Source: Enhydrobacter aerosaccus
GTDB taxonomy: Bacteria; Pseudomonadota; Alphaproteobacteria; Reyranellales; Reyranellaceae
DNA: 64,000 nt
Assembly: GCA_903839865.1 (NCBI GenBank)
Contig: CAIMEE010000420.1
Coordinates: 1-64,000, forward strand
Reading direction: 5' to 3'
Shown here piece after piece: positions 1,948 through 7,080 of the stretch; the first letter of the stretch is position 1; each line of letters opens with the position of its first letter. The notes under the pieces were generated by a model. The model made no database searches. It was given only the letters and a program-made list of their open reading frames with translations, and was not told the DNA's origin. Position numbers and translations under genes: made by a program.

Positions 1948-4125
1948 CTAGGCACCCTTTTTCAGCTCGTTGTTCATCAGCGGCAGCTCGCGCACGCGCT
2001 TGCCGGTCGCCTTGTAGATGGCATTCAGCACCGAAGGCGCCGCCACCGCAATGGTGGGCTCGCCGACGCCGCCCCAGAAGCCGCCGGAGCCCACGATCAC
2101 CGTCTCGACCTCGGGCATCTCGTCCATGCGCATGACGTTGTAGCTGTCGAAGTTGGTCTGCTCGACGACGCCGTTCTTCACGGTGATCTCGCCGTACAGC
2201 GCGGCCGACAGGCCGTAGACGAACGAGCCCGCGACCTGGCGCTCGATCAGCCACGGATTGACGGCGTAGCCGGGATCGGTGGCCGCCGTGATCTTGTGGA
2301 TCTTGAGCACGCCGTCGGGATTGACCGACACTTCGGCGACGCCGGCCACGTAGGAGCCGTACCCCATCACCTGGGCGATGCCGTGGAAGTGCCCCTGCGG
2401 CAGCGGCTTGCCGTATCCCGCCTTGTCGCACGCGGCCTTCAGCACGGCGGCGTACTTGGGCTTGAGCAGCTTCAGGCGGAACTCGAGCGGGTCCTTGCCT
2501 GCGGCCTCCGCCAGCTCGTCCATGAAGCTTTCCATGTAGACGGCGTTCTGGTTCACGTTCACGCCGCGCCAGAAGCCCGCCATCAGATGGGGGTTGCGCA
2601 TGGCGTGATCGATCAGAAGGTTCGGCACGTTGTAGCCGTAGGCCGCCTCCGGGCCGCTCGCCATGAGACCCTGGAACGTCGCGGGATCCATGCCGCTCTG
2701 CAGGCTTTGCGGCGCCAGCGACGCCAGGATCGACTGGCCCGAGATGCGCACGTGCAGCCCGACCAGGTTGCCGTCCTTGTCGAGGCCGCCGGTCATCTTG
2801 CACATGGTCGTCGGGTGGTAGAGGCCCTGCTGCATGTCTTCTTCGCGCGACCACACCAGCTTGACCGGCGTGCCCGGCATCTGCTTGGCGACCAGCACCG
2901 CCTGACGCACATAGTCGGCGCGCCCGCGACGGCCGAACCCGCCGCCCAGCATCATCTTGTAGACGTCGCACTTGGCGACCGGCAGGTCGGCTGCTTCGGA
3001 CGCGGCGGCGAGCGCCGCCTCGCCGTTCTGCGTGCCGCACCACACCTCGCACTTGTCGGTCGTCCACAGCGCCGTCGCATTCAGCGGCTCCATCGGCGCG
3101 TGGTTCTGCCACGGGAAGGCATAGGTCGCCTCGACCTTCTTGGCGGCGCCGTCGATCGCGGTCTTGGCGTCACCGACCTTGTTGCCGATGTAGGTCTCGG
3201 TGGCGGTCAGGCCTTCCTTGAGCATCGCCACGACGTCGGACTGCTGGATGTCGCCCAACTTGCCGACGTCCCATTCGATGGGAAGAGCGGCGAGCGCCGT
3301 GCGTGCGCTCCAGTAGGTATCGGCCACCACGACAACAGCGTTGCCGTCGATCGACACGACTTTCTTCACGCCCGGCATCTTCTCGATCTTGGCCGCGTCG
3401 AAGCTCTTGAGCTTGCCGCCGCGCACCGGGCACGCCTTGACCGCGCCGGTCAGCATGTTCGGCAGCTTCACGTCGATGCCGTACATCTGCTTGCCGTTGA
3501 CCTTCTCCAGGGTGTCGAGGCGATGGATCGGCTTGCCGATCACCTTCCAGTCCTTGGGATCCTTGAGCGGTATTTCCTTGGGCGGCTCGAGCTTGGCCGC
3601 GGCCGAGGCGAGATGGCCGTAGGGGAGCTTCTTGCCCGAGCTGTGCGTAACGACGCCGTTGGATGCCGTGCATTCGGCCGCCGGCACTTTCCACTCCGCC
3701 GCCGCCGCCGCTATCAACATCATGCGCGCGGCAGCGCCGCCTTCACGGACATACTGCTGGCTCTCGCGGATGCCGCGCGAGCCCCCGGTCGAATAGTTCT
3801 TCCAGACGCGGTTGCGCCGCACGTTCTCGCCCGGGGTCGGGTATTCGGTCGTAATCTTGGTCCAGTCGCATTCGAGCTCTTCCGCCACCATCTGGCAGAG
3901 CCCGGTCAGCGTGCCCTGGCCCATCTCGGAGCGGGCGATGCGGATCACCACCTTGTCGTCGGGATGGATCACGACCCAGGCGTTCACCTCCTGCACCTCG
4001 GCAGCCATCGCGGGCGCATAGGGGAAGGAGAAGGCGAGCGAGAAGCCGCCGGTGGCGGCTGCGGTGCCGACGAGGAAATTGCGCCGATTCATGGAATTGG
4101 AGCCGAGAGAGGTCTGGATTGTCAT
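1948..4125 (-). CDS. Xanthine dehydrogenase family protein molybdopterin-binding subunit (isoquinoline 1-oxidoreductase beta-like)
   Basis: Tat leader MNRRNFLVGTAAATGG; GGGFGRRGRADYVRQAV, MEPLNATA, GQNxN-type motifs; paired with 2Fe-2S subunit. Confidence 0.92.
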   Translation of the reverse strand: MTIQTSLGSNSMNRRNFLVGTAAATGGFSLAFSFPYAPAMAAEVQEVNAWVVIHPDDKVVIRIARSEMGQGTLTGLCQMVAEELECDWTKITTEYPTPGENVRRNRVWKNYSTGGSRGIRESQQYVREGGAAARMMLIAAAAAEWKVPAAECTASNGVVTHSSGKKLPYGHLASAAAKLEPPKEIPLKDPKDWKVIGKPIHRLDTLEKVNGKQMYGIDVKLPNMLTGAVKACPVRGGKLKSFDAAKIEKMPGVKKVVSIDGNAVVVVADTYWSARTALAALPIEWDVGKLGDIQQSDVVAMLKEGLTATETYIGNKVGDAKTAIDGAAKKVEATYAFPWQNHAPMEPLNATALWTTDKCEVWCGTQNGEAALAAASEAADLPVAKCDVYKMMLGGGFGRRGRADYVRQAVLVAKQMPGTPVKLVWSREEDMQQGLYHPTTMCKMTGGLDKDGNLVGLHVRISGQSILASLAPQSLQSGMDPATFQGLMASGPEAAYGYNVPNLLIDHAMRNPHLMAGFWRGVNVNQNAVYMESFMDELAEAAGKDPLEFRLKLLKPKYAAVLKAACDKAGYGKPLPQGHFHGIAQVMGYGSYVAGVAEVSVNPDGVLKIHKITAATDPGYAVNPWLIERQVAGSFVYGLSAALYGEITVKNGVVEQTNFDSYNVMRMDEMPEVETVIVGSGGFWGGVGEPTIAVAAPSVLNAIYKATGKRVRELPLMNNELKKGA

Positions 4126-4140
4126 GCGTGCACCCTCCCC

Positions 4141-4590
4141 TTAGGCCTTGGCCGCGGCGTGGATGGCTTCGCGGATCTGCTTGTAGGTGCCGCAGCGGCA
4201 GATGTTGGTCATCGCCGCGTCGATGTCGGCATCAGTGGGATTGGGCTTGGCGGCGAGCAGCGCTGTGGCCGCCATGATCATGCCGCTCTGGCAGTAGCCA
4301 CATTGCGGCACGTCGAGCGCTACCCAGGCGGCCTGGATCTTGTTCAGCTTGTCGCCGTCGGCGATGCCCTCGATCGTCGTGATCTTGCGGCCGCCGACGG
4401 AGTTCATCGGCACCTGGCAGGAGCGCGTCGGCACGCCGTCGATGTGCACGGTGCAGGCGCCGCACTGGGCGATGCCGCAGCCGTACTTGGTGCCGGTCAT
4501 GCCGAGCGTGTCGCGCAGCACCCAGAGCAGCGGCGTCCGCGGATCGACCTTGGCGTCTACCGACTTGCCGTTGATGTTGAGAACAGCCAT
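4141..4590 (-). CDS. (2Fe-2S)-binding protein, small subunit of molybdenum hydroxylase (IorA/CoxS-like)
   Basis: [16 protein letters not shown] and [12 protein letters not shown]...[15 protein letters not shown] motifs. Confidence 0.95.
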
Positions 4591-4686: not shown

Positions 4687-6012
4687 TCAGGCCAGAGTTG
4701 CCTCGAAGACGCGGCGATAGTTGCCCCCGAGGATTTTCGCCGTCTCCTCGGCGTTGAAACGCTCGCGCAACGCGGCGGCGAGTTGCGGCATTTCATTGTA
4801 GTCCTCGATCGTGCTGCCACCGGGCAGCCCCAGCAGGTCGGTGCCGACGCCCACTCCATCGACGCCCACGACGTCGGCCATGCGCGCCATGCCTTGCGCC
4901 CAGGACTTGAACGTTCCGAAGATCTGCTTGATCGGCCAGATTCCGATCACCCCGCCGGTTCCGGCGATGGCGCGGGCGTGGTCGGGAGTGATGAGGCGGG
5001 TCCAGGCCTGGGGTTTTTCCGTAAGCGAGGTGTGCGACAGCACCAGCGGCTTGGCAGTGACTTGGGCGGCCATCTTCACCAGCTCGAACGTGCCATGCGC
5101 CACGTCGACGACAATTCCGCGCTGATTGCAGCGGCGAACAACCTCGGCGCCGAACGGCGTCAATCCGCCCTTCTCCGCGGGCTCGGTCTGGATGTCGCCG
5201 AGTTCGTTGACCCGATAGTGCGTAAGCTGCAGATGCCGCAGCCCGAACTTGTCGTAAGCCTCGTCGAGGCGCTCGATCTTGCCTTCGAGAAAGTCGGCGC
5301 CTTCGGCCGACACGATCACCGAAGGGCGTTCCGGCGTAGCCGCACGCAGCTCGGCCGCGGTCCGCACCATGCCGAGGCCCTGCTCGCGCACAACTCGTTG
5401 CAGTCGCGAGAACGCACGCTTGCTGTACTCGTAGAGTTCGCCGGGATTGGCGCTACGAAACGGCCTGATCCGCCCGCTGGTGATCTGCGTGGTTGGCGAG
5501 TCGGCCACAATGGCAAGACAGAGCGTGGAAACGCCGCCCTGGCGCATCGGCTGCGCCACCGGCGTGACGTCGGGATTGCTGCCGACAAACAGCAGTTTGC
5601 CGGCATGGCTGTGCATATCGATCGTCGGCACGACGGGCTGGGCCAGCGACGGCACAGGCAGGCAGATGAGCGGGCTGGCGGCCAGCAAATGGCGCCGCCT
5701 GATCCCGCCGACGGTCCTGACGCCGCGCAGCTGGTAGCGCCACTGATCGTTGTCGTCGGCTTCGACATGCAACGTGCCAGACAGGCGCAGCGCGCCGGCG
5801 GTGAGATCGATCTCACGTTCGGCGAAGACCTCGATCACCGCCAGGCGATTGGCCGGCACGCATCCGGCGCAGCAATTGGCCTCGGCCATGAGAAGAAAAT
5901 AGTCGGACCGCACGGTGCCGAGAGCGGCCGTCGGCCATCCCGTCACTTCGACTATCTTGCCGTGCGCCCTGTCGGCACGCGGCGTTCCAAGATCATGCCA
6001 CGAAAGTCTCAT
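4687..6012 (-). CDS. Membrane dipeptidase (peptidase M19) with an extra ~100-aa N-terminal domain
   Basis: C-terminal TIDMHSHAGKL...VSAEGADFLEG...LTHYRVNELGD...VLSHTS...VGVGTDLLGLPGG; N-terminal IVEVTGWP...FLLMAEANCCAGCVP...WRYQLRGVR domain; internal RRRHLLAASPLICLPVPSLAQ. Confidence 0.85.
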   Translation of the reverse strand: MRLSWHDLGTPRADRAHGKIVEVTGWPTAALGTVRSDYFLLMAEANCCAGCVPANRLAVIEVFAEREIDLTAGALRLSGTLHVEADDNDQWRYQLRGVRTVGGIRRRHLLAASPLICLPVPSLAQPVVPTIDMHSHAGKLLFVGSNPDVTPVAQPMRQGGVSTLCLAIVADSPTTQITSGRIRPFRSANPGELYEYSKRAFSRLQRVVREQGLGMVRTAAELRAATPERPSVIVSAEGADFLEGKIERLDEAYDKFGLRHLQLTHYRVNELGDIQTEPAEKGGLTPFGAEVVRRCNQRGIVVDVAHGTFELVKMAAQVTAKPLVLSHTSLTEKPQAWTRLITPDHARAIAGTGGVIGIWPIKQIFGTFKSWAQGMARMADVVGVDGVGVGTDLLGLPGGSTIEDYNEMPQLAAALRERFNAEETAKILGGNYRRVFEATLA

Positions 6013-6021
6013 CGGCTCTCC

Positions 6022-7080
6022 CTAGAGCTTGGGAGGCGGATAATAAGGCCTTTCACCCAAGGCGTGCACGCGCTTCCAGAACTCGGGCCCGGAGGCCTTG
6101 CCCACTTCGTCGAGGTCGGCGGCCTGGCGCCACAGGCTCCACGAGTCGGGATGGAGCCTGCTCGCCTCGGCCATCTGCAGGTCGCCTTCGGCTGCACGGC
6201 CATGGGCGCGCAGCCACACACCGAGTCGGAAATGTGCGCGGGCGGCCGCGATCTCCGGCGTCACCTTCGGCAGATTCGCACGGGCTGCATTTTCAGGCAG
6301 CGCGTGCTTGCCGGCGGTCACCCAGGCGCGCACGGCGTCCATATAGGCCACCCGTGCGGCAAGTCGTTCTTCCTGTGCCTGTGGCGACATGGTGCGGGTC
6401 TTGAGATCCATGCCCCGGAAATGATCGGTCGAGCCCGCCGTCTCGGGCGGCCGCACGATCTTGCCTTGCTCGTCAATCCAGATCGCCTGCGGGACATTCA
6501 CGAGATTGTAGAGATCCTCGAGCTGATGATCGGCATCGATGAGCTGCCAGTAATCGGACTTCGCCTGCTCGATCCACGGCCGCGCGTGCTCGGCGCCGCG
6601 GCTTTCTTCCGCGACCGCCACCACCATGAAACCCTTGTCCTTAAGGTCGCTGTAGAGCTGCTGCCACACGGGCAAGTCGAACCTGCAGCCTCACCAACTG
6701 GCCCAGGTCGCGAGGAATACCTTTTTACCTCGCAAGGTCGAGAGCTTGCGTGGCGTGCCGTCGACATCGGGCAACGTAAAGTCTGGCGCCTCGAGGCCTT
6801 CGAGCGCGGCGTTGCGCTCTTCCGGCGGCGCGCCCAGCGCCCACACGTCGCGCGTTTCGCTCGACACGACGGGACCGCCCAGCTTCTTCCAGAACGCCGC
6901 GAGGTCGACTTCCTTGGCGCCGACGGCCGAGGCCGGCAGCGGCACGCAGAGATCGTCGCGGCACATGCCTTCGGGCTTCAGGGTCCAGCCCGTCACCTTC
7001 TCGGCATCGGCCGGACTCATCCAGAGCCCGTCGCGCGCAGCGACGTCGAACTCGGCAAGCGGCGTCAGGATCTTGGTCAT
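6022..7080 (-). CDS. Putative selenocysteine-containing thioredoxin-fold protein (TGA at 6691-6693 read as Sec; WASWUGC motif)
   Basis: ORFs 6691..7080 and 6022..6675 are in the same frame, separated by one TGA; the joined product ...LEAPDFTLPDVDGTPRKLSTLRGKKVFLATWASW-U-GCRFDLPVWQQLYSDLKDKGFMVVAVAEE... is a continuous ResA/AhpC-like fold with TGA at the catalytic Cys position. Confidence 0.82.
6657..6689 (-). promoter_or_regulatory. Candidate bacterial SECIS element downstream of the in-frame TGA
   Basis: Inner stem UGCC (6674-6671) / GGCA (6665-6662) with loop CGUGU (G in loop position 2), 17-29 nt after UGA; outer stem GCUGC (6689-6685) / GCAGC (6661-6657). Confidence 0.45.

Follow-up and report, generated by a model that had tools for sequence, protein, structure and literature searches.

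A predicted M19 dipeptidase with a DUF3299-like OB domain ahead of an internal Tat-like signal

Architecture and conservation of the fusion protein

The 64,000-nucleotide stretch of Enhydrobacter aerosaccus DNA analyzed here (the window) encodes a 441-amino acid protein in which an OB-fold domain is joined, in one reading frame, to a predicted M19 dipeptidase through a segment that reads as a Tat-type signal. We infer, with a probability of roughly 0.7, that the gene yields one precursor, that its OB domain remains cytoplasmic as an oversized n-region, that the internal Tat signal exports the dipeptidase, and that cleavage then separates the two parts. A preliminary description of this DNA had proposed the same order of parts (Cys-rich N-terminal domain, Tat-like signal in mid-protein, M19 dipeptidase), and all of the residues that it quoted were found in the ORF running from 6012 to 4687. 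The features of the gene are as follows.

4687..6012, minus strand: fusion gene (DUF3299-like OB domain, internal Tat-like signal and M19 dipeptidase), 441 aa, ATG start
6016..6023, minus strand: Shine-Dalgarno-like AGGGAGAG, which overlaps the stop of the selenoprotein gene upstream
5710..6012, minus strand: N-terminal domain, aa 1-101, five-stranded OB fold, remote DUF3299 relative (AlphaFold, Foldseek, profile search, hhalign)
5860..5874, minus strand: CCxxC motif, C47-C48-A-G-C51 (sequence)
5641..5703, minus strand: internal Tat-like signal, aa 104-124, with RRR, an uncharged hydrophobic stretch and a predicted signal peptidase I site, SLA|Q (sequence)
5692..5697, minus strand: codons of the invariant twin arginine, R106-R107 (ortholog alignment)
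4699..5625, minus strand: M19 dipeptidase domain, aa 130-438 (Pfam PF01244, PDB sequence matches, alignment)

The Shine-Dalgarno-like stretch (AGGGAG) lies directly 5' of the ATG of the fusion ORF, and a similar purine-rich stretch is also present 5' of many orthologues.

About 40 of 65 members of the genus, among them the isolate Enhydrobacter aerosaccus ATCC 27094, encode these parts in the same order and in one frame, as do other genera of the same family, families f2, f58, f62 and f94 of the class, and one genome from another class of the phylum (L142). Because it is conserved across several bacterial families, the placement of a domain before the signal is a real, if slightly odd, protein design. 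A frame or sequencing error that joined two genes has nothing to recommend it except the odd architecture and the draft state of the window's genome (622 contigs); given the identical frame in dozens of independent assemblies, one of them an isolate genome, we rejected both such an error and a pseudogene, and consider the chance of error practically negligible. In keeping with the preliminary description, orthologues retain the signal at the junction and show no frame error. A frameshift within the N-terminal domain, near a contig end, interrupts the fusion gene at L037/L039 (G004:C8) and reflects either a pseudogene or an assembly error.

The N-terminal domain is a diverged relative of DUF3299

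The N-terminal domain had been called uncharacterized, which holds insofar as amino acids 1-106 of the window protein have no Pfam match at E<=1 and the domain has no match in NCBIfam, but not with respect to remote homology. The preliminary description had suggested modeling the N-terminal residues; an AlphaFold model of the domain, built from 12 sequences, is a five-stranded OB-fold beta-barrel (pLDDT 81) whose top PDB match in Foldseek is 4hsp, the DUF3299 protein PA4066 (E=4.7e-4, probability 1.00, TMq 0.63), with most of the other good matches also being OB-fold proteins. A profile made from fused and stand-alone relatives retrieves 4hsp by sequence as well (E=2.1e-7), and hhalign of the domain against the stand-alone relative L066 gave a probability of 97.9. 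The gathering cut-off of Pfam DUF3299 (PF11736), which is 22, is passed by the stand-alone relatives L066, L072 and L074, with L075 falling just short, whereas the two fused relatives tested scored below it (L036, 20.9 bits; L136, 16.1 bits). Thus, on the strength of the structural and profile matches to 4hsp, the domain is a diverged DUF3299 relative, although the window's copy falls below Pfam detection and so stands formally outside the family.

The domain shares with DUF3299 (PF11736; ZrgE, PA4066/4hsp) the OB fold, the sequence profile and conserved Gly, Cys and Gly positions. It differs in having CCxxC where DUF3299 has CPFC or CPFH, in its location before a Tat signal, and in starting at residue 1 with no secretion signal of its own, whereas the stand-alone relatives begin with one. 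Across 21 diverse sequences of the wider family, the second Cys of CCxxC is invariant, and the last is replaced by His in L061, L074 and L075; such interchange of Cys and His suggests that the site binds metal, not that it forms a disulfide. DUF3299 was mentioned only in passing in the papers found by our literature search. In Vibrio it corresponds to ZrgE, a protein of unknown function in the Zur-regulated zinc operon zrgABCDE (PMC9817125).

The C-terminal part is a predicted M19 dipeptidase

By sequence, the remainder of the protein belongs to the M19 dipeptidases. Pfam Peptidase_M19 was matched at amino acids 153-437 (E=1e-46, 160 bits against a cut-off of 26), and the PDB sequence matches of the fusion protein are bacterial and human renal dipeptidases. 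H134-x-H136, E237, H306, H327, R339 and D392 are invariant in the alignment of orthologues, and four of these residues (E237, H306, H327 and D392) line up with motifs of the renal dipeptidases. What the fusion protein has in common with renal-type M19 membrane dipeptidases (PF01244) is therefore the C-terminal 290 amino acids with the catalytic Glu, His and Asp positions; what sets it apart is the OB domain before the signal and a first metal motif of HxH (H134, H136), where DPEP1 and the classical M19 enzymes have HxD. This HxH motif (aa 132-136; 5605-5619, minus strand) is invariant throughout the subfamily alignment. A full-length AlphaFold model had a mean pLDDT of 73.5 and dropped to values <50 in the Cys loop and across the signal, a confidence too low to show contacts between the domains.

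The buried segment has the properties of a Tat signal

Amino acids 104-125 of the fusion protein, IRRRHLLAASPLICLPVPSLAQ, read as a Tat-type signal. Among 47 aligned genes of the genus, the twin arginine at the junction is present in all 47, the uncharged run that follows has a median length of 20 residues, and a signal peptidase I-like AxA[QDE] site is found in 36; the window protein has SLA|Q. The h-region is short, Pro-rich and moderately hydropathic (best 17-residue mean of 1.5). In three proteins from other families (L060, L063 and L142), the same internal signal carries a lipobox (LAAC). The median dN of the segment relative to the dS of the gene was 0.31, as compared to 0.32 for the dipeptidase and 0.45 for the N-terminal domain, values from a method that is crude at this G+C content and of which only the comparison among the three parts counts.

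When 577 ORFs of >=150 aa (342 kb) were scanned as a control, 15 internal Tat-like signals were found, 12 of them in this gene family. The scanned DNA consisted of the window and further long stretches, which over-represent this locus; hence, the scan shows that such signals are rare outside this gene family and does not give a genome-wide rate. The Tat models of Pfam and NCBIfam matched neither the isolated segments nor the N-terminal signals of L107 and L135, which are clearly of the Tat type. The genome encodes TatC. The segment thus has the twin arginine, the uncharged h-region and the cleavage site of a Tat substrate, but starts at amino acid 104, and only in certain relatives from family f58 is the signal N-terminal.

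These relatives, from three genomes (L104, L107 and L135), encode the same dipeptidase without the N-terminal domain, beginning directly at the signal. Each gene opens with a GTG, which overlaps the selenoprotein stop codon upstream, and the L107 protein has the N-terminus VRFTRRAFLGGG...; the signal of L104 has RQ in place of RR. Three lines, namely the conserved twin arginine, uncharged run and AxA[QDE] site, the lipobox variants, and the domain-less relatives that start at this point, argue that the buried segment is a genuine Tat-type signal, with export by Tat being putative. The domain-less relatives are the most telling of the three.

A gene of the same genus as these f58 relatives (L134) retains the N-terminal domain behind the same GTG. 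In a phylogenetic tree, the fused subfamily is grouped (96/94) with the three domain-less f58 genes nested inside it, and at least three changes are needed on the tree, for example one gain and two losses. Because of this nesting, the most likely history is that the fusion is old, with the N-terminal domain having been added early and later removed in L104, L107 and L135, leaving an ordinary N-terminal signal. The existence of both domain-less f58 dipeptidases and stand-alone versions of the domain bears out the earlier suggestion that two separate units were fused, the former boundary between them being marked by a Tat-type signal.

A probable single precursor with proposed export from an internal signal

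The preliminary description had offered internal translation initiation as the alternative to fusion, which would give a separate exported dipeptidase beside the long form. It had also stated that no ATG or GTG lies near the junction, and this is correct: the one codon in frame there that resembles a start is a TTG directly 3' of the arginines. Some orthologues (e.g., L061 and L142) do have an ATG, GTG or TTG near the junction, as internal initiation would require; however, no start codon position is common to the 42 junctions compared, 11 of the 42, including that of the window, have none of these three codons from the last OB strand up to the twin arginine, and initiation at the ATG or TTG codons just after the arginines would discard them. 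On these grounds, a single precursor is the simplest reading, and we regard internal initiation as very unlikely. Alternatively, the signal may be an uncleaved anchor, making the protein a type II inner-membrane protein with the OB domain inside and the dipeptidase outside on one chain. Non-cleaved N-terminal Tat signals are known in Rieske proteins (PMC5449189), and the hydrophobic stretch could span the membrane and tie the OB domain to the enzyme; the short, Pro-rich and only moderately hydropathic h-region, the frequency of AxA[QDE] and the lipobox in other families speak against such an anchor, and it seems unlikely. Finally, the fusion could have locked the dipeptidase in the cytoplasm, where the whole protein would work and the signal would be a dead relic. 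M19 dipeptidases can be cytoplasmic, and a folded domain before the signal may block export. Yet the twin arginine, uncharged run and cleavage site have been kept over long divergence, and variation between lipobox and non-lipobox forms in other families would not be expected of a relic, which makes this explanation improbable.

According to the reading that we prefer, the gene would be translated into one precursor whose first 100 residues fold as a small OB domain of DUF3299 descent, whose next 20 residues would be a genuine Tat signal, now internal, and whose remainder would be a zinc-type M19 dipeptidase. With the internal twin arginine bound by the Tat translocon, the OB domain would be left in the cytoplasm in the manner of an oversized n-region, and the folded dipeptidase would pass through Tat to the periplasm. 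Signal peptidase I, or lipoprotein signal peptidase in the lipobox variants, would then separate the OB domain from the dipeptidase. The Tat dependence, topology and cleavage that we infer have to be set against three observations: known internal Tat signals come after membrane-spanning helices, DUF3299 relatives are normally secreted, making a cytoplasmic copy unexpected, and the domain-less relative L104 has RQ.

There is precedent for the handling of internal signals by Tat in actinobacterial Rieske and related proteins (PMC7317946, PMC5449189). Like the fusion protein, the internal-Tat proteins (actinobacterial Rieske, Sco3746-type Mo proteins and polyferredoxins; PMC5449189) have a twin-arginine signal far from the N-terminus, followed by a folded metal-dependent domain, but their signals are preceded by two or four Sec-inserted helices rather than by a soluble domain. 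A short literature search found no precedent for a soluble domain directly before a Tat signal. If the dipeptidase is exported as we propose, a soluble folded domain can directly precede a natural Tat signal without membrane helices, which would bear on the way in which signals enter and are threaded through the Tat translocon. It would also place in the cytoplasm a domain of the DUF3299 type, and this family is known chiefly from a zinc operon under Zur control.

A more speculative guess assigns the OB domain and its Cys/His cluster a role before export, either in supplying the dipeptidase with metal or in checking the enzyme while it is still cytoplasmic; the Cys/His pattern and the zinc-operon link offer some support for this. 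In its fuller form, in which the domain would be a built-in maturation or gatekeeping module that loads metal or shields the signal until folding, then stays in the cytoplasm after cleavage, we hold this idea to be doubtful. If true, the domain would be a cis-acting counterpart of separate Tat proofreading chaperones. Redox enzyme maturation proteins, which bind Tat signals (PMC3316669), share with it the idea of cytoplasmic maturation before export; they are separate chaperones whereas the OB domain is fused in cis, and the comparison is purely a functional one. Within one genus, matched genes with and without the domain follow the same start codon, and this makes the role of the domain directly testable.

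Genomic neighborhood and loss of the fusion gene

The neighbors of the fusion gene in the window are as follows.

6022..7080, minus strand: upstream neighbor, ResA-like WAxxUGC selenoprotein with in-frame TGA at 6691-6693 (NF041054, synteny)
4141..4590, minus strand: downstream neighbor, 2Fe-2S subunit of a xanthine-dehydrogenase-type molybdoenzyme (profile match, synteny)
1948..4125, minus strand: downstream neighbor, molybdenum subunit of the same molybdoenzyme, with an ordinary N-terminal Tat signal (NRRNFLVG)

The usual gene order in the genus is TPP enzyme, WAxxUGC selenoprotein, fusion gene, and small and large molybdoenzyme subunits. The selenoprotein scored 289 bits against NF041054, just below the cut-off of 300. 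Its selenocysteine TGA is invariant in all of the genus and f58 relatives read, and is kept even where the fusion gene has been lost; the genome also has a tRNA-Sec match of 71 bits. A literature search for WAxxUGC returned nothing.

The proposal that the Cys-rich domain is a redox or metal partner of the selenoprotein is weakly supported. The selenoprotein gene does adjoin the dipeptidase gene in the genus and in f58. However, no selenoprotein was found within the flanks read around fused genes outside the genus and f58, and the f58 dipeptidases that lack the N-terminal domain are likewise coupled to it. For both reasons, we rejected such a partnership as the reason for the N-terminal domain; the selenoprotein is a frequent neighbor of the dipeptidase.

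Several members of the genus have deletion remnants between the selenoprotein gene and the next gene, showing that the fusion gene itself is dispensable. The remnants differ among the losses seen: L092 9449-9612 (G016), L129 (G082), L116 (G073), L123 (G080) and L125 (G033). In G016, for example, the neighboring genes are intact, and between them ~25 codons from the start of the gene run almost directly into the last ~27.

A sister M19 group in family f62 (L137-L141), 43-45% identical, has predicted N-termini that begin MDCCGH.... In L137 and L141 this is followed by TRRHWMWG, such that a tiny Cys-rich stretch stands before a Tat-like signal, perhaps in parallel to the CCxxC domain.
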